Source of the DNA: Alphaproteobacteria bacterium
GTDB lineage: Bacteria > Pseudomonadota > Alphaproteobacteria > Acetobacterales > Acetobacteraceae
Assembly: GCA_016869715.1 (NCBI GenBank)
Contig: VGDM01000006.1
Span: 62,001-126,000 of the forward strand
Length of the DNA: 64,000 nt
Direction: 5' to 3'
Under the pieces are notes generated by a model, which was given only the letters and a program-made list of their open reading frames with translations, made no database searches and was not told where the DNA came from. Below, one piece after another: positions 4,665-64,000 of the stretch (its first letter is position 1; each line of letters begins with the position of its first letter). The position numbers and the translations under genes were made by a program.

Positions 4665-5984
4665 TCAGCGCACTAAAGCTGTTGAGAGCATGGGAAAGAA
4701 GGCAATAAGGATTAGCGCGAGGCCCATCACCGCCACAAAGGGCAGGGCGCCGGCGAAGATCGATTCAATGCTTACCTTCGGGTCTGCCAAGGTTGCCTTC
4801 ACAGTAAAGACCGAGATGCCAAAGGGCGGCGTCAGCAGGCCCATTTCCACCGCGATGATGGTAACAACGCCGAAATGGATCAGGTCAAACCCCATCGTGG
4901 TTGCAATCGGCGCACCGATCGGCACCATGATCAGCAGGATGGAGGTGCTGTCCAGAATCATCCCCATCAGCAGGATCACAATGACAAAGGCGAACAAAAA
5001 CCCATAAGGCCCAAGGCCCAAATGTTCGACGAAATTACCGATGGCATTGGGCACGCCGGCCATGGATAGCATGCGCGAATAAAGCCCGGCCGAGATCAGC
5101 AGAAACAGGATGGCTGCCGATACCAGGCCGGTTTCACGCAGAACACGCCAGAATTTCGTAAGCGTCAGGCGTCGGCGTACCAATGCAATGAATAAAGCGC
5201 CCGCCGCGCCTACGGCACCCGCTTCGGTTGGCGTGAAGAAACCCGTGTAAAGTCCGCCAAGGATTACCACCACAAGCGACATGATGGGCAGCGATTTACT
5301 GAGCATCTCGGCTGCCCCCATCGGCTTGTCATCGGCGATTTCGTTGGATGCGGCCGCACTCATGATCCGCTGCGGCGCAAACCGCGCATAGCACCAGATC
5401 ATGATGGTGAAAGCGATTGCGATAATCAGGCCGGGGATGGCGCCCGCGATGAACATGGCGCCGATGGAAACCTCGGCCAATACGCCATAAACAATCATCA
5501 AAAGCGATGGCGGTATCAGCATGCCAAGAATGCTGCTGCCCGCAACAGTGCCGGCGGCGAAGCGCATGGAATAGCCGTGGCGCACCATCTCGGGCACCGC
5601 GACCTTGGTGAAGACCGCCGCCGAGGCAATGGAAACCCCGGTCACCGCCGCGAAAACCGCATTGGCGCCAACAGTTGCGATGCCAAGCCCGCCCTTCACG
5701 CGTTTCAGTAGGTTCTGTGCGACATCAAAAGTATCCTTGCCAACATCGGAAATACTGACCAGGAGCCCCATGAGGACAAATAGCGGTATGGTCGCAAACA
5801 GATAATCCTGAATGCCGGAATAGGTCGCCAAGGCCGTGAAGCGAAAGGCCAAATCAGGATTTTCGCGGATCAGCCAAACGCCAATCGCGCCGGTTAAAAT
5901 CAACGTAACGCCAATCGGCAAACCGATGATGATCAGCGTCACCATCAGCCCGATCAGGGCAAAGCCCAGGCTTGTATCATCCAT
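4665..5984 (-). CDS. TRAP transporter large permease (DctM family)
   Basis: This 439-residue protein is the large membrane subunit of a TRAP transporter, which drives uptake of an organic acid with the Na+ or H+ gradient. It is hydrophobic throughout, with about a dozen segments, and carries family stretches such as FVLMGLLVSISDVG and GMILDSTSILLIMVP. I chose the ATG at 5984 (MDDTSLGFALIGLM); the open frame upstream adds an unlikely Cys-rich leader. The start overlaps the small permease stop by eight bases, so the two are translationally coupled. It closes the minus-strand run that begins at 11400. Confidence 0.92.
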   Translation of the reverse strand: MDDTSLGFALIGLMVTLIIIGLPIGVTLILTGAIGVWLIRENPDLAFRFTALATYSGIQDYLFATIPLFVLMGLLVSISDVGKDTFDVAQNLLKRVKGGLGIATVGANAVFAAVTGVSIASAAVFTKVAVPEMVRHGYSMRFAAGTVAGSSILGMLIPPSLLMIVYGVLAEVSIGAMFIAGAIPGLIIAIAFTIMIWCYARFAPQRIMSAAASNEIADDKPMGAAEMLSKSLPIMSLVVVILGGLYTGFFTPTEAGAVGAAGALFIALVRRRLTLTKFWRVLRETGLVSAAILFLLISAGLYSRMLSMAGVPNAIGNFVEHLGLGPYGFLFAFVIVILLMGMILDSTSILLIMVPIGAPIATTMGFDLIHFGVVTIIAVEMGLLTPPFGISVFTVKATLADPKVSIESIFAGALPFVAVMGLALILIAFFPMLSTALVR

Positions 5985-54141: not shown

Positions 54142-54224
54142 CAACGTATTCGATTTGTCATGGCGTGAGCGCCCCAGGGCCCTCACGCCAGGCATTGCCA
54201 AGCCCCCTCGGCCTTGCCAAAAGG

Positions 54225-54268
54225 CTGTTATGAAAGCGTCATAAAACTGTTATAAAAGCGTCAAAAAA
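54225..54268 (+). promoter_or_regulatory. Double PHO box (four 11-bp direct repeats) and overlapping -10
   Basis: Four repeat units lie head to tail with an exact 11-base period: CTGTTAT (54225), GCGTCAT (54236), CTGTTAT (54247) and GCGTCAA (54258), separated by the four-base A-rich spacers GAAA, AAAA and AAAA. Each unit matches the PhoB half-site CTGTCAT at five or six of seven positions. TATAAA at 54251-54256 lies about nine bases after the first pair, as expected for a PhoB-driven -10. The ribosome site AGGAGGGG (54270-54277) and the first gene follow at once. Confidence 0.88.
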
Positions 54269-54285
54269 CAGGAGGGGAGCTTACC

Positions 54286-55317
54286 ATGTTCACCAGAAGA
54301 CTGGCTTTGGCGGCGATGGCGCTGGGGGTGCTCGGCTTCGGGCAAGCCGCGCAGGCGCAGGGCCAGCTCAATCTTTATTGCTCTGTCCAGAATGAATGGT
54401 GCCAGGCGATTGTCACGAACTTCCAGCGCGATGCGGGCGTCCGGGTGAATATGACGCAGCGCGGTTCGGGCGAAAGCCTGGCCGCCATCCGGGCCGAGGC
54501 ACAGAATCCGCGCGCTGATGTCTGGTTTGGCGGCACGGGTGATCCGCACCTTGCGGCCGCTGAGGAGAACCTGACCCAGGCCTATGAAAGCGCCAATAAC
54601 GCCCAATTGCAGCCCTGGGCGCTGACGCAATGGCGTCAATCCCAACAGCGCGCGATTGGTGTCTATGCCGGCGCGATTGGCTTCGGCATCAATACGGAAT
54701 TGCTGGCGCGCAAGAATATCGCGCGGCCCGCCTGCTGGGCGGATTTGCTGGATGCGCGCTTCAAAGGCGAAATCCAGATGGCCAATCCGAATTCATCGGG
54801 CACAGCCTATGTGGTCATTGCCACACTCGTTCAGATCCTGGGTGAAGATCCGGCCTATGATTATTTGCGCCGCCTGCATCCCAATGTGAATGCCTATACG
54901 CGTTCCGGCACCGCGCCCATCAAGGCCGTGGCGCGCGGCGAAACCGGTGTTTCGCTTTCCTTCGTGCATGATGCGGTGACGGAACGGAATGCCGGCTTCC
55001 CCGTTGCCTATGCAACGCCCTGTGAAGGCACGGGCTATGAGATCGGGTCCATGTCCATCATCCGCGGCGCGCGCAACCTGCCGCAGGCGCGGCGGTTTTA
55101 TGATTGGGCGCTGACCGCACCGGCGCAGCAGCTTGGCTTTGACGCGGGCGGGCAATTGCAAACTCCGTCAAACCGCGCGGCACCGCTGCCGCCCAATGCG
55201 CCGGACCTTTCAAAAATTCGTCTGATTGACTATGATTTCGCGAAATTCGGCCAGGCACCAGAACGCCGGCGCCTGATTGCGCGCTGGGATCGCGATATCG
55301 GCGCGCTGCCACGTTAA
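54286..55317 (+). CDS. Phosphonate/iron-type ABC substrate-binding protein, copy 1
   Basis: This 343-residue periplasmic receptor belongs to the AfuA/PhnS-like family. The signal peptide ends near AQAQG and the mature start is LNLYCSVQNEWCQ with Cys32 and Cys39, a C-x6-C pair shared by all three copies. Core segments are NPRADVWFGGTGDPH, PNSSGTAYVVIATLVQ, RLHPNVNAYTRSGTAP and EGTGYEIGSMSI. Two further Cys (ARPACWADLL and ATPCEGTGYE) are shared with copy 3. It is the first gene after the PHO boxes and is followed by two paralogues, a permease and an ATPase. Confidence 0.92.
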   Translation: MFTRRLALAAMALGVLGFGQAAQAQGQLNLYCSVQNEWCQAIVTNFQRDAGVRVNMTQRGSGESLAAIRAEAQNPRADVWFGGTGDPHLAAAEENLTQAYESANNAQLQPWALTQWRQSQQRAIGVYAGAIGFGINTELLARKNIARPACWADLLDARFKGEIQMANPNSSGTAYVVIATLVQILGEDPAYDYLRRLHPNVNAYTRSGTAPIKAVARGETGVSLSFVHDAVTERNAGFPVAYATPCEGTGYEIGSMSIIRGARNLPQARRFYDWALTAPAQQLGFDAGGQLQTPSNRAAPLPPNAPDLSKIRLIDYDFAKFGQAPERRRLIARWDRDIGALPR

Positions 55318-55334: not shown

Positions 55335-56360
55335 ATGAACTCAACGCTTCGCCTGTTGGCCGCCTTCGCGGCCGTTGCCCTTTCTGCCTTGCCCGCTGCG
55401 GCGCAAGGCAACCTTACCATGGTATGCGCGCCGGCCGCTGATTGGTGTGAGGCGATAGCCGCCGGCTTTCAGCGCGATACCGGCATTCGCATTGCCATGA
55501 CGCGCAAATCCTCCGGCGAAATCCTGGCGCAAATCCGTGCCGAGGCGCAAAATCCGCGCACTGATATCTGGTTTGGTGGCTCGGCCGAGACGCATTTCTC
55601 CGCAGCCGAGGGCAATCTGCTGCAAATCTATACCTCGCCCAATATGGCGGGGCTGCATGATTGGGCGAAACGCGTGCATGCCTTGTCCGGCGAACGATGC
55701 GTTGGCGTTTCATCGGGTGCGATTGGTCTGGCCTGGAACCGGGAATTGATGGCGCGCAAGAACCTGCCTTTGCCGCGAAGCTGGGCTGATATGCTGAACC
55801 CAGCCTATCGTGGTGAGATTCAATTGCCCAATCCGAATTCTTCCGGCACGGCCTATACAATCATTGCCGGGCTGATCCAGCTTTGGGATGAGGATCGTGC
55901 CTTTGATTATTTGCGCCGCCTGCATCCCAATGTGAATGCCTATACACGTTCCGGCGCGGCACCGATGCAGGCTGTATCGCGCGGGGAGACCGCGCTTGCG
56001 GTCAGCTTCAATATGGAAGTCGCTTCCATGCAGCAGGCGGGGTTTCCGATTGATCTTGTCTATCCGTCTGAAGGTACGTCTTACGAAGTTGCCTGCATGT
56101 CCATCATGCGTGGCGCGCGCAACCTGGCGCAGGCGCGGCGCTTCTATGATTGGTATCTGACGCCGGCTGCGATGGATATCGGCCCCAAGGCCAATCAATG
56201 GCATGTGCCGGCGCATAAGGATGCCACACCTGATCCGCGCATCCCGGACCTGAGCCAAGTGAAGCTGATTGAGTATGATTTTGCCGCCTTTGGCGAGGGC
56301 AATCGCCGCAGGCAAATCCTGCAAAGATGGGAGAGGGAAATCGGTTCGCTGCCGCGCTAA
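55335..56360 (+). CDS. Phosphonate/iron-type ABC substrate-binding protein, copy 2
   Basis: This 341-residue paralogue keeps the C-x6-C start (Cys31 and Cys38 in MVCAPAADWCEA) and the core NPNSSGTAYTIIAGLIQ and RLHPNVNAYTRSGAAP. It differs around the ligand cleft: it lacks the second Cys pair of copies 1 and 3 and reads PSEGTSYEVACMS where they read PCEGTGYEIGSMS. It also begins GGSAETHFSAAEG rather than GGTGDPH. It may accept a different ligand. The start is 17 bases after copy 1. Confidence 0.9.
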   Translation: MNSTLRLLAAFAAVALSALPAAAQGNLTMVCAPAADWCEAIAAGFQRDTGIRIAMTRKSSGEILAQIRAEAQNPRTDIWFGGSAETHFSAAEGNLLQIYTSPNMAGLHDWAKRVHALSGERCVGVSSGAIGLAWNRELMARKNLPLPRSWADMLNPAYRGEIQLPNPNSSGTAYTIIAGLIQLWDEDRAFDYLRRLHPNVNAYTRSGAAPMQAVSRGETALAVSFNMEVASMQQAGFPIDLVYPSEGTSYEVACMSIMRGARNLAQARRFYDWYLTPAAMDIGPKANQWHVPAHKDATPDPRIPDLSQVKLIEYDFAAFGEGNRRRQILQRWEREIGSLPR

Positions 56361-56377: not shown

Positions 56378-57403
56378 ATGATCAGGCGCATCCTGGGGTT
56401 CATCATTGTGGTTATCATGGGCTTTTCTGCGCCGGTCTGGGCGCAGGGCAGCCTCAATCTCTATTGTTCGGCTACCATCGAATGGTGCCAGCCCATCGCG
56501 CGCGGGTTTGAACGGAAAACCGGCATTCGCGTGACACTCGCCCAAAAATCTACTGGCGAAATGCTGGCGCAACTCCGTGCCGAGGCGCGCAATCCGCGTG
56601 GCGATGTCTGGTGGGGTGGCACGGGCGATCCGCATGTCGCCGCCGGTGAGGAAGGGCTGACGCAAGCCAATGAAAGCCCGCGCATTGCCGAATTGCATGA
56701 ATGGGCGCAAGCGCAATGGCGCCAGACAGAAGGCCGCACGGTTGGCGTTTACGCAAGTGTGCTGGGCTTTGGCTTCAATACGGAATTGCTGACGCGCAAG
56801 AACCTGCCCGCGCCAACTTGTTGGGCGGATTTGCTGCGGCCTGAATATCGCGGCGAAATCCAGATGGCCAATCCAAATAGCTCCGGCACCGCCTATATCG
56901 TCATTGCTACGCTGGTGCAGATGATGGGCGAAGACCCGGCTTTTGAATTTCTGCGCCGGCTGCATGGCAGCATCAATGCCTATCCGCGGTCAGGCACCGC
57001 GCCCATTACGGCGGTGGCGCGTGGGGAGACGGCGCTGTCCATTTCCTTTGTCCACAACGCAGCGGAAGAACGCGCGGCAGGTTTTCCGGTGGGGCATGCC
57101 GTGCCGTGTGAGGGCACGGGCTACGAAATCGGCTCCATGTCCATCATCAAGGGCGCGCGCAATATGGCGGCTGCACAGCGCTTCTATCATTGGGCGCTGT
57201 CGGCCGAGGCGCAGCTTACCGCTTCCCAGGAAGCGAAGAAGCTGCAAACCATGGCCAATCGCCGCGTGCCGCTGACCGATGGCGCGCCGAATATGACGAC
57301 CGCGCGCATCATTGATTACGACAACGCCCACTTTGGCGCGAGTGCTGAGCGCCGCCGCCTGCTGGCGCGTTGGGATAGGGAGGTCGGCGCACTCCCGCGC
57401 TGA
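56378..57403 (+). CDS. Phosphonate/iron-type ABC substrate-binding protein, copy 3
   Basis: This 341-residue paralogue is closer to copy 1: C-x6-C at Cys30 and Cys37 (LYCSATIEWCQP), NPRGDVWWGGTGDPH, APTCWADLLRP and PCEGTGYEIGSMSI. The HPNVNAYTRSG segment has drifted to HGSINAYPRSG. The ATG at 56378 has GGAG at 56367-56370; the frame is open to 56327 inside copy 2 but without signal-peptide character. It precedes the permease gene by 12 bases. Confidence 0.91.
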   Translation: MIRRILGFIIVVIMGFSAPVWAQGSLNLYCSATIEWCQPIARGFERKTGIRVTLAQKSTGEMLAQLRAEARNPRGDVWWGGTGDPHVAAGEEGLTQANESPRIAELHEWAQAQWRQTEGRTVGVYASVLGFGFNTELLTRKNLPAPTCWADLLRPEYRGEIQMANPNSSGTAYIVIATLVQMMGEDPAFEFLRRLHGSINAYPRSGTAPITAVARGETALSISFVHNAAEERAAGFPVGHAVPCEGTGYEIGSMSIIKGARNMAAAQRFYHWALSAEAQLTASQEAKKLQTMANRRVPLTDGAPNMTTARIIDYDNAHFGASAERRRLLARWDREVGALPR

Positions 57404-57415
57404 AGCCCGTACCGC

Positions 57416-59617
57416 ATGTTCTTCGGCAGTAGCTTGTTTTTCTGGTTGATCGCAGCCTTGGGCACACTGATCTTGCCGTGGCATATGCACCAGGATGGCG
57501 TCAGCCTTGCGACACTTATCGGGCTTGGCTCAGAAGATGCGGAAGCCTCCTCTGCCTTTTGGCAAGCGCTGTATTTCGGCCGCTTCTGGTTCTGGCCAGT
57601 TATTTCTGGCTTGGCTTTGGCGCTACCCGGCGCGCTGCCTTTTGCCAATGCACGGATGCGTGGGCGGGTGCTGATCATCGCGGGTAGTTTTGGGTTATTC
57701 ACCATCATCGCCCAGGGAATCACGATTGGTATTCAAGGCTGGAATGTCCCTTTCCTTGAGGCAGCCTTTGGCGAATTAAAGGATCGGCAATTCGGCATGG
57801 GGCTTGGTGGCGCGCTTGGCTTTATCGGCTTTCTGGTGCTGCTGACGGATGGATTGGCGCTGCGCGGCTTTTTCAAAGGTGATCGCTTCATTGCCGGCGC
57901 TGTTGGTGTGCTGATCGCCTGTATCGTAATTTTCACCGCCTGGCCGGTCACCACAATCCTTGCGCAAATCTTCACGCCGCAGGGTGATCTGGGGGTTGCG
58001 GATGCCATGGCGGCACGCCTGTTTGATCGCAAGATTTGGGGGCTTGGCTGCGTTGCCTCCTCAGTGAACTGCGGCGTGTTTTGGAATACGCTGGTGCTGG
58101 CGACCTCTACTGCCACGGCGGCGACGCTGCTGGGACTTTGCTTTGCGCTGATTGTGACGCGCACCCAATTCCCCGCGCGTCGCGCCTTGCGGCTGTTGAC
58201 GGTGCTGCCCATCATCACGCCGCCCTTCGTAATTGGCCTGGGCTTGATCCTGATTTTTGGCCGATCCGGCGTTGTGAACCAATTGGCCGATAGCCTGTTC
58301 GGGCTGCAATTGGGACGCTGGATTTATGGCTTTGATGGCGTGTTGCTGGCGCAGGTTTTCTCCTTCACGCCAACCGCCTTTCTAGTGCTGATTGGCGTTG
58401 TGGAAGGTATTTCGCCGGCAATGGAGGAAGCGTCCTCAACGCTCCGCGCCAGTCGAATGCGAACCTTTCGCGCGGTGTCTCTGCCCCTGATGCTGCCGGG
58501 CATCGCCAATGCCTGGTTGGTGGTTTTTGTCGAAAGCCTCGCGGATTTTGGTAATCCCATTGTCTTGGGCGGGTCCTTCGGTGTACTGTCAACCGAGATT
58601 TTCTTCGCCGTGGTTGGCGCGCAGCAGGATTTTGGTCGCGCCGCCGTGCTGGCCGCGATCATGTTGGTGATTGCGCTTTGCGCCTTCATTATTCAGAGGG
58701 TTGTGGTTGGCAGCCGGTCCTATGTCTCGCTAACGGGGAAGGGCGATGTCGGGCTGCCGACGCCATTGCCAGCACCGGTGCAGCGCATCGCTTACGCTAT
58801 TGCGCTGCCTTGGGCGCTGCTGACCATCACGGTTTACACCATGGCGCTGGCGGGTGGTTTTGTGCGTGTCTGGGGACGGGATTGGACCCCGACCTTTTCC
58901 CATTTCCAGCGCGCCTTTGCGCTGGAATGGAGCCCGGCTGGCGCGCTGATATTCTCGGGCGGTGCCTGGCATTCGTTCTTTACCACCATCAGACTTGCAG
59001 CGATTGCGGCGCCCATCACGGCAGCGCTTGGGTTGCTTGCCGCCTGGGTGCTGTCGCGCCAGCGTTTTGTCGGGCGCACGGCCTTGGAATTCGCGCTAAT
59101 GCTGACTTTTGCCGTGCCCGGCACCGTGATCGGTGTTGCCTATATCCTGACCTATAATCTGCCGCCACTGGAAATCACTGGTACGGCGATGATCCTTGTG
59201 GCCTGCTTTGTTTTTCGTAATTTACCGGTCGGTGTGCGCTCCGGCGTTGCGGCGATGAGCCAGCTCGACAAATCCCTGGATGAGGCGGCTGTCACTTTGC
59301 GCGCTTCCACCTTCCGCAGCCTTCGCACCGTAGTGCTGCCGCTGCTGAAGCCCGCCATTGTCACAGCACTGGTTTATGCCTTTGTACGCGCCATGACGAC
59401 AGTTTCAGCGGTAATCTTCCTAGTCTCTGCTCAATATGAAATGGCAACGGTCTTCATCATCAACCGCGTCATCAATGGCGATTACGGGCTGGCCATCGCC
59501 TATTCCAGCGCAATGATTGTCTTGATGATGGCAGCCATTGGCCTGATCAATCTGCTGGTGGGCAACAGGCGTCTTGGCCGCCGCCAGACCGCCACACCGA
59601 TAAGAGGGCGCGCATAA
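57416..59617 (+). CDS. ABC transporter permease with two transport modules (AfuB/PhnU-V-like)
   Basis: This 733-residue membrane protein fuses two permease modules, each with an EAA loop: EEASSTLRASRMRTFRAVSL and DEAAVTLRASTFRSLRTVVL. An N-terminal block of about 170-200 residues with extra membrane segments lengthens it well beyond the usual 550-570 of phosphonate and iron permeases. It should form the pore for the three upstream receptors. It shares a one-base overlap with the ATPase gene. Ferric iron is an alternative substrate for the family, but the PHO box and phn genes favour a phosphorus compound. Confidence 0.9.
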   Translation: MFFGSSLFFWLIAALGTLILPWHMHQDGVSLATLIGLGSEDAEASSAFWQALYFGRFWFWPVISGLALALPGALPFANARMRGRVLIIAGSFGLFTIIAQGITIGIQGWNVPFLEAAFGELKDRQFGMGLGGALGFIGFLVLLTDGLALRGFFKGDRFIAGAVGVLIACIVIFTAWPVTTILAQIFTPQGDLGVADAMAARLFDRKIWGLGCVASSVNCGVFWNTLVLATSTATAATLLGLCFALIVTRTQFPARRALRLLTVLPIITPPFVIGLGLILIFGRSGVVNQLADSLFGLQLGRWIYGFDGVLLAQVFSFTPTAFLVLIGVVEGISPAMEEASSTLRASRMRTFRAVSLPLMLPGIANAWLVVFVESLADFGNPIVLGGSFGVLSTEIFFAVVGAQQDFGRAAVLAAIMLVIALCAFIIQRVVVGSRSYVSLTGKGDVGLPTPLPAPVQRIAYAIALPWALLTITVYTMALAGGFVRVWGRDWTPTFSHFQRAFALEWSPAGALIFSGGAWHSFFTTIRLAAIAAPITAALGLLAAWVLSRQRFVGRTALEFALMLTFAVPGTVIGVAYILTYNLPPLEITGTAMILVACFVFRNLPVGVRSGVAAMSQLDKSLDEAAVTLRASTFRSLRTVVLPLLKPAIVTALVYAFVRAMTTVSAVIFLVSAQYEMATVFIINRVINGDYGLAIAYSSAMIVLMMAAIGLINLLVGNRRLGRRQTATPIRGRA

Positions 59618-60672
59618 TGACCAATAAGGCCGCCGAAGTTCGGCTTGAAGGCATCGCCAAGCGCTATGGCAAGGTGGAAGCGGTGAAGCCGCTCGATCTG
59701 ATTGTTGAAGGCGGCACGCTAGTGACCTTGCTCGGCCCCTCGGGCTGCGGGAAGACAACGCTGCTCCGCATGATTGCCGGATTAGAACAACCAAGTGGCG
59801 GGCAGCTATTCATTGGTGGACGTGATGTGACGCTGCTTTCCGCCGGTAAACGCAATGTCTCCATGGTGTTTCAAAGCTATGCGCTTTTTCCGCATATGAC
59901 GGTGCTGGAGAATGTGTCCTACGGCCTGATATCCTCGGGCTTTGCAAAAAAGGAAGCCGTTGCGCGCACGGAAGCTGCTTTGGAAACCGTGGGCCTGCGT
60001 GGGTTTGGCGCAAGGCTGCCTTCGGAAATGTCGGGCGGGCAACAGCAACGTGTCGCGGTGGCGCGCGCCTTGGTCTTGGAACCGGCGGTGCTGTTGTTTG
60101 ATGAGCCACTTTCTAATCTGGACACGCGGCTTAGGCGCAGCATGCGGGAAGAAATCCGCGCCCTGCAACAGCGCCTTGGCCTGACCGTGGTTTACGTGAC
60201 CCATGATCAGGCTGAGGCTTTGGCGGTGTCCGACAAGATTGTTGTGATGCGCAATGCCGAAATCGCCCAAAGCGGCACGCCTGAGGCGCTGTATGCGAGC
60301 CCAGAGAATGTATTTGTTGCGACCTTCATGGGTGAGGCGAACCATGTGCGCGGCAGTATCGAAAGCATCGCCGGCGATACCGCACAGGTGGCGCTTGATG
60401 CGCTGAGGCTTACGCTGCTGCATCGTGGTCTGGGGGCTGGGCCTTGCGATGTGGTGATCCGGCCAGAGGCGATCCGGCTTGCCGATAGCGGCCCCGGCAT
60501 CGCCGGACAGATCGCGCGCGCAACCTATATGGGCGCGCATACGGAATACATGATTGCCACCCCGGTTGGAGAGCTTTTTGCAATCCATCCTGACCGGCTG
60601 CAGCGCCGCGCCGCCGGCGATGCCGTGATGGTTACGCTCGATCCGGAAGGGGTGGTTCTGGTCCGGCCATGA
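59617..60672 (+). CDS. ABC transporter ATP-binding protein (phosphonate/iron type)
   Basis: This 351-residue ATPase has Walker A GPSGCGKTT, signature EMSGGQQQRVAVARA, Walker B VLLFDEPLSNLD and a TOBE-like C-terminal domain (about residues 240-350). It energises the large permease encoded just upstream, sharing one base (TAATG) with it. Family members of this length serve iron, spermidine or 2-aminoethylphosphonate transporters. It is followed 74 bases later by phnD. Confidence 0.93.
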   Translation: MTNKAAEVRLEGIAKRYGKVEAVKPLDLIVEGGTLVTLLGPSGCGKTTLLRMIAGLEQPSGGQLFIGGRDVTLLSAGKRNVSMVFQSYALFPHMTVLENVSYGLISSGFAKKEAVARTEAALETVGLRGFGARLPSEMSGGQQQRVAVARALVLEPAVLLFDEPLSNLDTRLRRSMREEIRALQQRLGLTVVYVTHDQAEALAVSDKIVVMRNAEIAQSGTPEALYASPENVFVATFMGEANHVRGSIESIAGDTAQVALDALRLTLLHRGLGAGPCDVVIRPEAIRLADSGPGIAGQIARATYMGAHTEYMIATPVGELFAIHPDRLQRRAAGDAVMVTLDPEGVVLVRP

Positions 60673-60746: not shown

Positions 60747-61817
60747 ATGTTCCGTAAAAGCCTTGGCGCCATCGGCCTTGCCACGGCGCTTGTTACAGCC
60801 ACCGCCGGCGATGCCAGCGCGCAAATCGTCTGCGCCTTCCGTGGTTCCTTGGATGAGGCCTATTGCGATGCTGATCGCAATATGGTCGCCGATGTGCCCG
60901 CCGATGCGGCGCGGCAGCGAGACCCTTCCACGCTGGTCTTTGCCTATACGCCGGTGGAAGACCCTGCGCTTTACGCCACGCAATTCCGCCCGCTGCTTGA
61001 ATATCTCGGCCAATGCGTCGGGCGCCGCGTGGTTTATTTTCAGGTCACCAGCAATGCCGCGCAGGTGGAAGCCATGCGTTCGGGCCGGCTGCATATTGCG
61101 GGATTTTCCACTGGTCCCACAGCCTTCGCCGTGAATCTGGCGGGCGCTGTTCCCTTTGCCATCAAGGGCAATCCGGATGCTTTTGAAAGCTACCGCGTTG
61201 TGACCCTCGTGCGTGCCGATAGCCCGTTTCAATCTCTTGCTGATCTGAAGGGTAAGCGGGTTGCGCATACATCGGCCACATCCAATTCCGGCAATCTGGC
61301 ACCGCGCGCTTTCTTCCCGGGGCTTGGGCTGACGCCGGATACGGATTACCGCGTGGTCTATTCCGGTGGGCATGACCGCAGCGTCATGGGTGTGAATGCC
61401 GGCGATTATGATGCCGCGCCGGTGGCGTCAGACGTTTTCAACCGCATGGTCGCGCGTGGCCAGGTGCGGCGCGATAATTTCCGCATCATTTGGCAATCCG
61501 ATGCTTTTCCCACCTCATCCTTCGCGCTGTCGCATGACCTGAAGCCGGAATTGGCGGAGCGCATCCGCAAATGCTTCTTTGATTATCGCTTCCCGGAAGC
61601 TTTGCAGCGTGATCTGGGCGGCAATGATCGCTTCTGGCCGGCGACCTATTCCGAACATTGGGCGCCGGTGCGCGCTGTCGCGGATGCGGTGAATGCGCCC
61701 TATAACCGTGCGGCGTTTGATGCGGAAAGCCGACGCGAATTGGAGGCGGAACAACGCCGAAATCAGCAGCGCCAGCAACAGCAGCAGCAGGCCCCGGCAC
61801 CAGCGCGTCCTCAGTGA
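60747..61817 (+). CDS. phnD: Phosphate/phosphite/phosphonate ABC substrate-binding protein
   Basis: This 356-residue receptor has a signal peptide ending in DASAQ, a Cys pair after it ([15 protein letters not shown]), and the PhnD core: [39 protein letters not shown] and [16 protein letters not shown]. The last 25 residues form a Gln/Pro-rich tail ([14 protein letters not shown]) absent from typical PhnD. The ATG at 60747 has AGGGAG six bases upstream. No separate PHO box is seen before it, so it may be read from the upstream promoter. Confidence 0.92.
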
Positions 61818-62584
61818 TGCACGCGGGCGCGATGCAGGGCCTGATTATCAAGGGCCTAGTCAAGGAATATGTCCCGGGCAAGCCGGTCTTGCGCGGGATC
61901 AACCTTGCCATTGCGCCGCAGGGCATCACTGCCGTCATCGGGCCTTCAGGCACGGGCAAATCTACGTTGCTTCGCAGCATCAATCGGCTGGTTGAGCCAA
62001 CCGCTGGGCAGATCCTGCTCAATGGGCAGGATCTTGTGCCCATGCGCGGGCGCGGTTTGCGCATGGCGCGCCGGCGCATCGGCATGGTGTTTCAGGAATA
62101 CAATCTGGTCGAACGGCTGAGCGTCATGGAAAACGTGCTCTCTGGCCGGCTTGGTTATGTCTCGCTCTGGCAGGCATGGATGCGGCGCTATCCGGAAGCA
62201 GATATCGCGCGCGCCTTTGCCTTGCTGGATGCCGTTGGCCTGCAAGAACAGGCGACGCGTCGCGCCGATGCGCTTTCCGGCGGGCAGCGCCAGCGCGTTG
62301 GCATTGCGCGCGCCCTGATGCAGCAGCCGGAATTGCTCCTGGCGGATGAACCGACATCTTCGCTCGACCCGCGCACGGCGGTTGAAATCATGGAATTGAT
62401 GACTGGGCTTTCCGCCTCGGCCAATGTGCCCTTGGTGGTGAATATCCATAATGTTGACCTGGCGCGGCGCTTCGCGCATCGCATCATCGGCATGGCAGGC
62501 GGTGAGATCGTGTTCGACGGCCCGCCCGAGGATTTGCAACCGGAACATCTCCGCCAGATCTATGGCGGTGAGGATTGGCTGTGA
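61817..62584 (+). CDS. phnC: Phosphonate ABC transporter ATP-binding protein
   Basis: This ATPase of about 255 residues has Walker [10 protein letters not shown], the Q-loop [10 protein letters not shown], the signature [16 protein letters not shown] and Walker [13 protein letters not shown]. The PhnC-specific [18 protein letters not shown] is present. It overlaps the phnD stop (TGATG). An alternative GTG start three bases earlier is possible. It pairs with the two PhnE permeases encoded downstream. Confidence 0.95.
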
Positions 62585-63366
62585 GCGCCAGCACACTTCA
62601 CCGTCGCGCCTTTCCGCCGAATTGGGGCGCGCGCGCCACCGGGCTTGGCCTGGTGGTCTATGCAATTTATGCGCTCGCCCAATTGGACATTACTTGGGCG
62701 CGGCTTAGAATTGGCTTTGGCGAGGCCGGGCGCTTTATCGCCCGCATGTGGCCGCCCAATTTCTCCCGCGCGGAATTGCTGATTGAAGGCTTGCTGGAAA
62801 GCCTTCAAATCGCCGTAATTGCCTCTGCGCTTGGCATTCTGCTGGCACTGCCTCTCGGGTTGATGGCGGCACGCAACCTCGCACCATGGCCGCTGGCAGT
62901 CGCTACGCGTGGTTTCGTCGCCTTCTGCCGTAGCTTGCACTACGTGATTGTCGCGATCTTATTCGTCAAAGCCATCGGATTTGGCGCCTTGGCGGGTGTG
63001 GCAGCGCTGACCATCGCTTCCATGGGTTTCATCGCCAAATTATTTGCCGAGGCAATTGAGGAAATCTCCATGAAACAAGTGGAAGCCATTCGAGCGACAG
63101 GTGCGAGCTTCGGTGCCGTGCTGGTCTATGGTGTTCTTCCGCAGGTTGCATCGCGCTTCATTGGGTTTTCGCTTTATCAGTTGGATTCAAACCTACGCAA
63201 TTCAACTCTGGTCGGTATTGTTGGTGCCGGGGGAATTGGCGGGACGCTTTTCGCCGCCTTCAAGCGCTTTGATTATGATTTTGTTGCCGCCATTCTGCTT
63301 ACCATCATTGCGCTTATTTTTGTGGCCGAGCTAATTTCCGGCTGGATCCGGGCGCTCCTCCGATGA
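62581..63366 (+). CDS. phnE: Phosphonate ABC transporter permease
   Basis: This permease of about 261 residues has the PhnE segments [38 protein letters not shown] and the EAA-like [18 protein letters not shown], followed by [20 protein letters not shown]. The GTG at 62581 overlaps the phnC stop (GTGA). The short loop before the first transport segment ([14 protein letters not shown]) is typical. It forms a heterodimer with the next permease. Confidence 0.93.
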
Positions 63367-64000
63367 GTGCCCTGATGCGCGAATGGCGGCGCTTCACGCC
63401 AATGGAACGCTTCACGCGCTGGGCGGCGTATTTCGCCCTTGTGATCGCCCTAGCCTGGGCGGTGCGCAATGTGGAGATCATTCCAGAATTTCTGATTGAT
63501 GCACCAGAACAGATGCTTGATTTGCTGGCGCGCATGTGGCCACCGGATCTTGGGCATTACCATCCGGCGGTGCATCACGCGCTGGTGGAAACGCTGCATA
63601 TTGCCTCACTCGGCACCTTGTGCGCGTTTATTTTTGCCGTGCCCTTGGCCCTGCTGGCGGCACGCAATATCTGCCCTTATCGCGGGCTGAACGCTTTTGC
63701 GCAGCTGCTATTGGTGACTTCACGCTCTGTCAATTCACTGGTGTGGGCACTGATTTTTGTGGCGATTTTCGGGCCAGGCGCCGCTGCCGGCACCTTCGCG
63801 ATCGCCTTTCGCAGCATTGGCTTTGTCGGCAAGCTACTCGCCGAGGCTTTGGAGGAAATCTCCCCGGGGCCCTTGGAGGCGTTGGAAGCGACCGGTGCGC
63901 CTAAAACCCACGTCCTGCTCAAAGGCGCCTGGCCGCAAATTGCTCCAGCCTTTTTTGGGGTGGCGCTGTTCCGCTGGGATATCAATATCCGTGAAAGTGC
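63363..64000 (+). CDS. phnE: Second phosphonate ABC transporter permease (runs off window)
   Basis: This second PhnE-type gene starts with ATG at 63363, overlapping the first permease stop (ATGA), and is still open at the last base of the window. It has the family segments ALVETLHIASLGTLCAFIFA, SRSVNSLVWALIFVAIFG and EEISPGPLEALEATGA. About 212 residues are visible and the C-terminus lies beyond the window. C-P lyase genes would be expected further downstream if this is a catabolic phn locus. Confidence 0.92.
   Translation, partial: MSALMREWRRFTPMERFTRWAAYFALVIALAWAVRNVEIIPEFLIDAPEQMLDLLARMWPPDLGHYHPAVHHALVETLHIASLGTLCAFIFAVPLALLAARNICPYRGLNAFAQLLLVTSRSVNSLVWALIFVAIFGPGAAAGTFAIAFRSIGFVGKLLAEALEEISPGPLEALEATGAPKTHVLLKGAWPQIAPAFFGVALFRWDINIRES

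Follow-up and report, generated by a model that had tools for sequence, protein, structure and literature searches.

Gene organization of the locus

The window, by which we mean the whole 64,000-nucleotide stretch of Acetobacteraceae DNA that was analysed, carries on its forward strand a transporter operon that begins with three consecutive receptor genes. Receptor 1 (SBP1; 54286-55317) is AfuA-like, and receptors 2 (SBP2; 55335-56360) and 3 (SBP3; 56378-57403) belong to the AfuA family. They are followed by a fused ABC permease of PhnU2/ModB/CysT-like type (57416-59617), which does not reach the cut-off of any of the 25 families listed, and by an ABC ATPase with a TOBE_2 domain (59617-60672). 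A phnDCEE series lies downstream on the same strand. Its PhnD-like receptor (60747-61817; start picked by eye, after a Shine-Dalgarno sequence) scores 200.9 with TIGR01098 (cut-off 112.05) and stays below the PhnD equivalog TIGR03431 (150.9 vs 261.1). The PhnC ATPase (61814-62584) and the first PhnE permease (62575-63366) pass their models, with 312.4 for TIGR02315 (cut-off 266.1) and 265.1 for TIGR01097 (cut-off 216.7). The second PhnE permease (63363-64000) runs 160 bases beyond the window and, scanned with 212 of 265 residues, falls just below the cut-off (213.7 vs 216.7). The series combines PhnC and PhnE scores at equivalog level with a PhnD-family receptor, as expected of a PhnCDE importer.

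Inspection by eye of the 74 bases between the ATPase gene and phnD revealed no PHO box, and the phnDCEE genes may be co-transcribed with the importer operon. Through them the cell may also import phosphonate or phosphite. In the flanks fetched for related loci, the phnDCEE linkage recurs in the window's clade and at locus L048; farther relatives have the receptor(s), permease and ATPase only.

A doubled repeat array precedes receptor 1

Sequence reading places four heptameric units on the forward strand directly upstream of receptor 1: CTGTTAT at 54225-54231, GCGTCAT at 54236-54242, CTGTTAT again at 54247-54253, and GCGTCAA at 54258-54264. Their spacing is exactly 11 bp across 54225-54264, and they form a distal PHO-type box, CTGTTAT-GAAA-GCGTCAT (54225-54242), and a proximal one, CTGTTAT-AAAA-GCGTCAA (54247-54264). 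The array is followed at once by a Shine-Dalgarno sequence on the same strand, AGGAGGGGAG (54270-54279), and the ATG of receptor 1 at 54286. PHO boxes are defined as 7-nt CTGTCAT-like direct repeats every 11 nt (PMC4415409), and the array has both the unit type and the spacing. The original prediction described four CTGTCAT-like units with an 11-base period before the ribosome site. Coordinates, Tandem Repeats Finder (periods 22 and 11 called) and resampling all agree with it; the four units score 35.2, and the best of 2000 first-order Markov resamples of the 250 bp upstream reaches 26.7. The unit description itself needs qualifying, as the 11-bp spacing is real but none of the four units reads literally CTGTCAT, and they alternate between CTGTTAT and GCGTCAW. 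The doubled layout is likewise borne out, the array consisting of two 22-bp copies with mismatches at 2 of the 22 positions.

A degenerate fifth unit, TTGCCAA (54214-54220, forward strand), continues the 11-bp phase upstream and recurs in near relatives with minor variation, reading TTGCGAA in some and CCGTCAA in L021. Allowing up to 3 mismatches, CTKTCATAAAAGCGTCAYAAA finds two matches in the 3.55-Mb genome, the distal and the proximal box. The generic pattern CTGTCATN4CTGTCAT, scanned across the genome with up to 3 mismatches, proved unspecific (182 matches vs 44 with the reversed control), and the array site requires all 3 mismatches to match it. We also observed two TTGCCAA heptamers, 19 bases apart within 54195-54220, that are upstream of the box and conserved in near relatives; the more upstream heptamer is out of the 11-bp phase.

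Conservation and orientation of the box among relatives

Upstream regions were compared for 76 of 77 receptor-homologue loci, L046 being left out for too little upstream sequence. A two-unit canonical box is present in 55 of the 76 at p<=0.05 and in 40 at p<=0.01 (200 resamples each), where near-identical relatives are all counted and the locus counts are not independent events. Control segments 551-800 bases upstream, which cover 71 of the 76 loci, gave 5/71 and 1/71 at the same thresholds. By the two-unit consensus score, 21 of the 76 loci have no significant upstream box; L070, L073 and L075, matched in their receptor-3-like gene, are counted as misses. At box-less loci L023, L031, L037, L043, L045 and L076 an ATPase gene lies directly upstream of the receptor, which is therefore probably not the first gene of its operon there.

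The 55 boxes divide into 29 forward and 26 reverse. Boxes of the window's clade are forward and directly precede the Shine-Dalgarno sequence, and Reyranella-like loci with a box are also mostly forward, L072 being reverse. Roseomonas-group loci outside the clade have mostly reverse boxes where one was found (e.g. L026, L028, L034, L036, L038 and L044), and reverse boxes lie approximately 69-236 bases before the start of the receptor match. The minus strand of L034 reads CTGTCATCGAATTGCAACGAAAATGTCAT, and several pstS sites of the genus carry CTGTCATCGAA too. At L026, L032, L033 and L036 the box appears by eye to be downstream of a terminator of the preceding gene, and should therefore serve the receptor operon. 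In the reverse arrays of L041 and L042, the last unit RTGACA stands 17 bases before TAATCY, an arrangement that looks -35/-10-like by eye.

The motif is shared with pstS and an arsenate-related gene

The genome encodes PhoB (TIGR02154, 323.7 bits; cut-off 296.2) and has 12 further matches to the PhoB model, among them several PhoB-like regulators. The pstS gene is on the same contig as the window, with pstC-, pstA-, pstB- and phoU-like genes, assigned by eye from order and sequence, in between. A regular expression finds 11-bp-phased units before pstS in 19 of 22 loci (L140-L161), the exceptions being L143, L146 and L147. By eye, these arrays extend into another unit followed 10 bases on by a TAGAAG-like element. 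The pstS promoter array of the genus, with units TTGTCAT/NNTTCAY/CTGCAAT/GNGTCNY, resembles the window array in its 11-bp phasing and in the 10-bp spacing to TANAAG (by eye), and unlike the window has no 22-bp duplication.

We scanned 313,148 positions of the genome with a unit matrix derived from pst sites, the genome scan that the original prediction had proposed. With 4 or 5 units summed, the window array ranks next after pstS, which is first by construction as the matrix was trained on pstS sites. This part of the scan supports the assignment, but the rank is lower with fewer units: with 3, a minus-strand chance site at 54612 outscores the array, and with 2 the window boxes are absent from the best 14 sites. 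With 100 resamples for each of the 76 relatives, the 3-unit matrix flags 28 at p<=0.05, so that the two-unit consensus score used above was the more sensitive of the two.

A one-box motif, CTGTCATAAAAGCGTCAY, derived only from the operon boxes of the window's relatives, was then searched with up to 2 mismatches in 35 genomes of the genus. It occurs at 33 places in 18 of the 35, and the reversed pattern at 5. Fourteen of the places precede receptor 1 of the operon (13 genomes), nine precede pstS and nine an arsR-arsC fusion gene; the one remaining place sits at a contig end, and the pstS site of genome G020 was assigned by coordinates. Phosphate and arsenate genes are expected PhoB targets. A motif shared by the operon, pstS and the fusion gene at 32 of the 33 places therefore points to PhoB. 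The window's own genome yields a match at the importer operon only, since the units of its pstS have diverged more and lie beyond 2 mismatches. Taken together, the array score, the boxes of 55 of the 76 relatives and the same motif at pstS across the genus uphold the predicted identity of the repeats as PHO boxes, to which PhoB would bind and from which it would activate transcription under low phosphate.

The fusion gene was noted in its own right. A PHO-type box, CTGTCATGAAAGCTTCAC, lies 34 bases 5' of this ArsR/low-molecular-weight phosphatase (ArsC-like) fusion in nine genomes of the genus (L171 1501-2353, L174, L189, L197-L199 and L201-L203), and a Pfam scan of one representative gives an ArsR-type HTH and a low-molecular-weight phosphatase domain. 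This arrangement suggests that arsenate defence is under PhoB control in the genus.

The duplication and a candidate promoter

When ten near relatives were aligned, with the conserved block starting at ATTGCCAA (54194), the window alone showed an insertion of one box length and the relatives had one box. The doubled pattern, at up to 3 mismatches, is found in one of the 35 genus genomes, that of the window. From the end of the proximal box to the start codon there are 21 nt, and from that of the relatives' single box 20-21 nt. The aligner placed the single box on the distal copy; the sequence alone is compatible with either copy as the older. We inspected 21 of the 29 forward boxes (p<=0.05) for the distance to the start codon, and in 19 the first ATG is 12-21 nt after the box (24 nt in L080 and 60 nt in L084). 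There is therefore no room for a canonical -10 element downstream of the box in single-box relatives, where the canonical activator spacing is missing and even repression is conceivable.

The doubled array offers two candidate -10 elements on the forward strand. TATAAA, which was said to lie inside the second box, is present at 54251-54256 and starts 8 bases after the distal box; that it serves as a -10 activated by the first box is plausible. TAAAAG (54253-54258) is 10 bases after the distal box. In the pstS promoter of the same genome, the last unit is followed after 10 bases by TAGAAG, a -10-like element by eye, and the distal box, 10 bp and TAAAAG reproduce this layout. Because the pstS-like spacing arises only with the doubled array, the duplication may have turned the site into a pstS-like activating promoter. 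The search upstream of the operon gave no consensus sigma-70 promoter, as expected if an activator is needed, and a search by eye for extra-cytoplasmic sigma elements in single-box relatives gave no convincing match. The sign of regulation and the transcript start proposed here are both predictions from these spacings.

The receptors resemble phosphate-ester binders

For receptor 1, a PDB search returned 4r72 (AfuA; E 1.3e-91), 8x1a (1.2e-86) and 6wce (P5PA; 1.4e-77), then a gap to the next structure at 3.7e-12; the aminoethylphosphonate receptor 4r6y stands at 1.2e-9. Receptors 2 and 3 have the same three structures at the top, 8x1a scoring slightly better than AfuA, and for each receptor the FbpA-type chains and 4r6y are far behind these three. 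The iron(III) name of 8x1a is a deposition label, and the FLHD and PCEGTGYE motifs of AfuA are visible by eye in its alignment. AfuA belongs to AfuABC, a hexose/heptose-phosphate ABC importer of Actinobacillus pleuropneumoniae (PDB 4r72-4r75; PMC4546632). Despite its name it is reported to bind hexose phosphates, G6P at 24 nM and F6P at 8 nM, and the substitutions H205A, D206A and E229A are each reported to abolish binding (PMC4546632, PMC8427247). The window differs from AfuABC in having three receptors rather than one, a phnDCEE linkage, PHO-type boxes, and a receptor 2 whose ring-binding end is changed.

Receptor 1 is 46% identical to AfuA (144/314) over the full mature length. The 19 pocket residues of AfuA are kept at 17 positions in receptor 1, 15 in receptor 3 and 10 in receptor 2. 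Receptor 1 retains Ser37, Thr60, Tyr103, Ser148-Gly149-Thr150, Phe203, His205, Asp206, Glu229 and Gln269. All four phosphate-binding residues (Ser37, Ser148, Gly149, Thr150) are unchanged in receptors 1 and 2, with Thr60 replaced by Ser in receptor 2, and receptor 3 carries S37T. The ring contacts at 205, 206 and 229 diverge more. Receptor 1 has the H-D-E of AfuA, receptor 3 reads H-N-E (D206N) and retains it in part, and receptor 2 has M-E-E, its ring-binding end being altered by Y103S, H205M, D206E and Q269H. These differences recur in the fetched loci, where H205, D206 and E229 are present in 68/68 receptor-1-like homologues, M-E in 38/38 receptor-2-like homologues, and Asn at 206 in 28 of 31 receptor-3-like homologues; position 37 of the 38 receptor-2-like homologues is S in 14, T in 7 and A in 17. 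P5PA (6wce; PMC8427247) is of the same subfamily and has the same serine/threonine/glycine phosphate pocket as the receptors. It has alanine at 206 and 229, positions at which receptor 1 keeps Asp206 and Glu229 of AfuA (PMC8427247).

The original prediction held that family knowledge leaves iron or phosphonate as substrates. By the PDB search and the pocket residues this choice was incomplete, the AfuA/P5PA-like receptors being nearest to phosphate-ester binders. Phosphonate is improbable for the receptors of the first transporter, but the downstream phnDCEE keeps phosphonate or phosphite in play. The predicted role in phosphorus supply stands, on boxes shared with pstS and on AfuA/P5PA-like receptors.

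Weighing alternative explanations

Two other accounts of the regulation were considered beside activation by PhoB. In the first, PhoB binds but represses in the single-box relatives, where the box overlies the likely -10 and transcript start, and in the window the duplication strengthens the block or converts the site to an activating promoter. The short distance to the first ATG in 19 of 21 forward-box loci fits this account, and PhoB is reported to activate or repress according to position (PMC10294691). It would make little sense, however, for phosphate starvation to shut off a phosphorus importer, the doubled array restores the pstS spacing, and a possible S. meliloti counterpart, set beside the window by description only, is induced; we regard repression as unlikely. 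In the second account a different regulator of the OmpR/PhoB family, one whose 11-bp half-site is similar, binds the array. The 12 further PhoB-model matches in the genome supply candidates, but the like motif before pstS in 19/22 loci and its recurrence at phosphate genes in the genus-wide search make this very unlikely.

The substrate has two competing assignments. Among the families listed, the best NCBIfam names make the receptors and permease aminoethylphosphonate transporters and the ATPase ferric, all below cut-off. AepX presumably belongs to TIGR03261 (phnS2), which is the top NCBIfam model for all three receptors, and an AepX/phnS2-type importer of 2-aminoethylphosphonate would suit the downstream phnDCEE and a genome that contains the C-P lyase gene phnJ, flanked by what look by eye like further phn genes, and a transaminase resembling PhnW, which scores above cut-off with one of the three PhnW models. 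The AepXVW/phnS2 importer is of the same Pfam family, and PhoBR-dependent induction of AepX at low Pi is reported for P. putida (PMC8316502). The three receptors reach only about half of the TIGR03261 cut-off, however (186.8, 208 and 205.6 bits for receptors 1-3 vs 392.75). L115, a protein from the genus that is 33% identical, passes the model with 410.3. It shares with receptor 2 a Met at the His205 position, but lacks the AfuA-type His-Asp ring contacts that are present in receptor 1. We judge aminoethylphosphonate an improbable substrate for the first transporter. Ferric iron, for which this family is often annotated, is less credible again, and we consider it extremely unlikely. The SBP_bac_6 family is shared, the ATPase is similar to a ferric transporter model, and several matched PDB chains carry iron names, including AfuA and 8x1a, the best structure for receptors 2 and 3. 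The adjacent tyrosine pair is the iron-holding mark of FbpA-type receptors, and YY occurs in none of the three. Outside the subfamily, iron-named chains reach no better than about 1.6e-11 with receptors 1-3, 8x1a shares with AfuA the two motifs given above, and PHO-type boxes are conserved upstream in a search that covered PHO-type boxes alone. AfuA itself binds hexose phosphates in spite of its iron name (PMC4546632).

A model for the operon and its precedents

The repeat, its conservation, the pstS motif of the genus, and the receptor homology and pocket residues are observations. The reading that we favour, and think reasonably probable, is that the array is two tandem PHO boxes controlling a PhoB-activated organophosphate importer operon. 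Four PhoB half-sites and a weak fifth would place this operon in the PhoB regulon. Under low phosphate, PhoB-P would bind the array head to tail and recruit RNA polymerase to the -10 within the proximal box (TATAAA/TAAAAG). From receptor 1, hexose-6-phosphate-type esters would pass to the single fused permease and its ATPase, and the same channel would accept other phosphoryl compounds from receptors 2 and 3; these ligands are predicted from the pocket residues. If co-transcribed, phnDCEE would contribute the uptake of phosphonate or phosphite. In this way a freshwater bacterium probably scavenges phosphorus from organic molecules.

Several points count against this favoured reading. Receptor 1 is only 46% identical to AfuA, and P5PA, 54% identical to AfuA, binds a different ligand, pyridoxal phosphate (PMC8427247). 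The structure nearest to receptors 2 and 3, 8x1a, bears an iron(III) name, and Ser37 of receptor 2 varies among its homologues. Many farther relatives have a reversed array, and 21 of the 76 upstream regions lack a significant box. The one-box search of the window's genome finds the importer operon alone, its pstS being too different. Finally, there is no consensus sigma-70 promoter, and the ATG of single-box relatives is too close for canonical activator spacing.

A broader proposal, 'one pump, several hooks', is more tentative, and as a whole we would not yet bet on it. It would have three AfuA-type receptors serve one PhoB-controlled permease for several phosphate-ester or phosphonate classes, with the grip on the phosphate largely kept and the grips on the rest of the molecule diverged (His-Asp, Met-Glu, His-Asn). 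It would also make the 'iron' transporters of Acetobacteraceae and Reyranella-like bacteria Pho-regulon organophosphate importers, with the PHO box duplicated into a pstS-like promoter in the window. We judge it slightly less probable because Ser37 varies among receptor-2 homologues.

The S. meliloti gene SMc04317 is, we assume, annotated afuA. The SMc04316-SMc04317 operon is the closest precedent, likened to the window by description and not by sequence; these 'iron transport' genes have a Pho box and are reported to respond to phosphate stress with strong induction (PMC8829014). Prior knowledge includes PHO boxes, AfuABC and the control of phosphonate uptake by PhoB. Among the titles and abstract starts of the literature matches listed, none links AfuABC-type sugar-phosphate uptake to PhoB, which is weak evidence of absence. 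Within the same scope, and with the same weight, we found no description of three diverged AfuA-type receptors with a phnDCEE link and a strain-specific box duplication. The usual label for transporters of this family is iron uptake; the regulatory and pocket evidence argue for phosphate-ester import, and the authors of the AfuA study leave open that other predicted iron transporters are misannotated (PMC4546632). If the reading is true, a whole bacterial group relies on such a transporter to take up intact phosphate esters during phosphate shortage. With its diverse receptors and its natural contrast of single-box and double-box promoters, the system lends itself to direct tests of ligand switching and of promoter evolution.

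Related loci elsewhere in the genome

The window's genome has a second AfuA-like receptor-permease-ATPase system (L129 3727-13447, contig C2); the part of its sequence that was read by eye shows no box. Its neighbours are an inositol-monophosphatase-family gene, a short-chain dehydrogenase, a TPP enzyme and a xylose-isomerase-like gene, and the locus is possibly a cluster for the uptake and use of inositol phosphates or sugar phosphates. That this system adjoins an inositol-monophosphatase-family gene suggests phosphate-ester substrates for the family. At the C-P lyase cluster (L135, approximately 5100-5250; contig C37) we observed TTGTCATCAAAGTTTCAA and, nearer the first gene, TCTATAAGTCTAGACA, which we take to resemble a PhnF-type operator.
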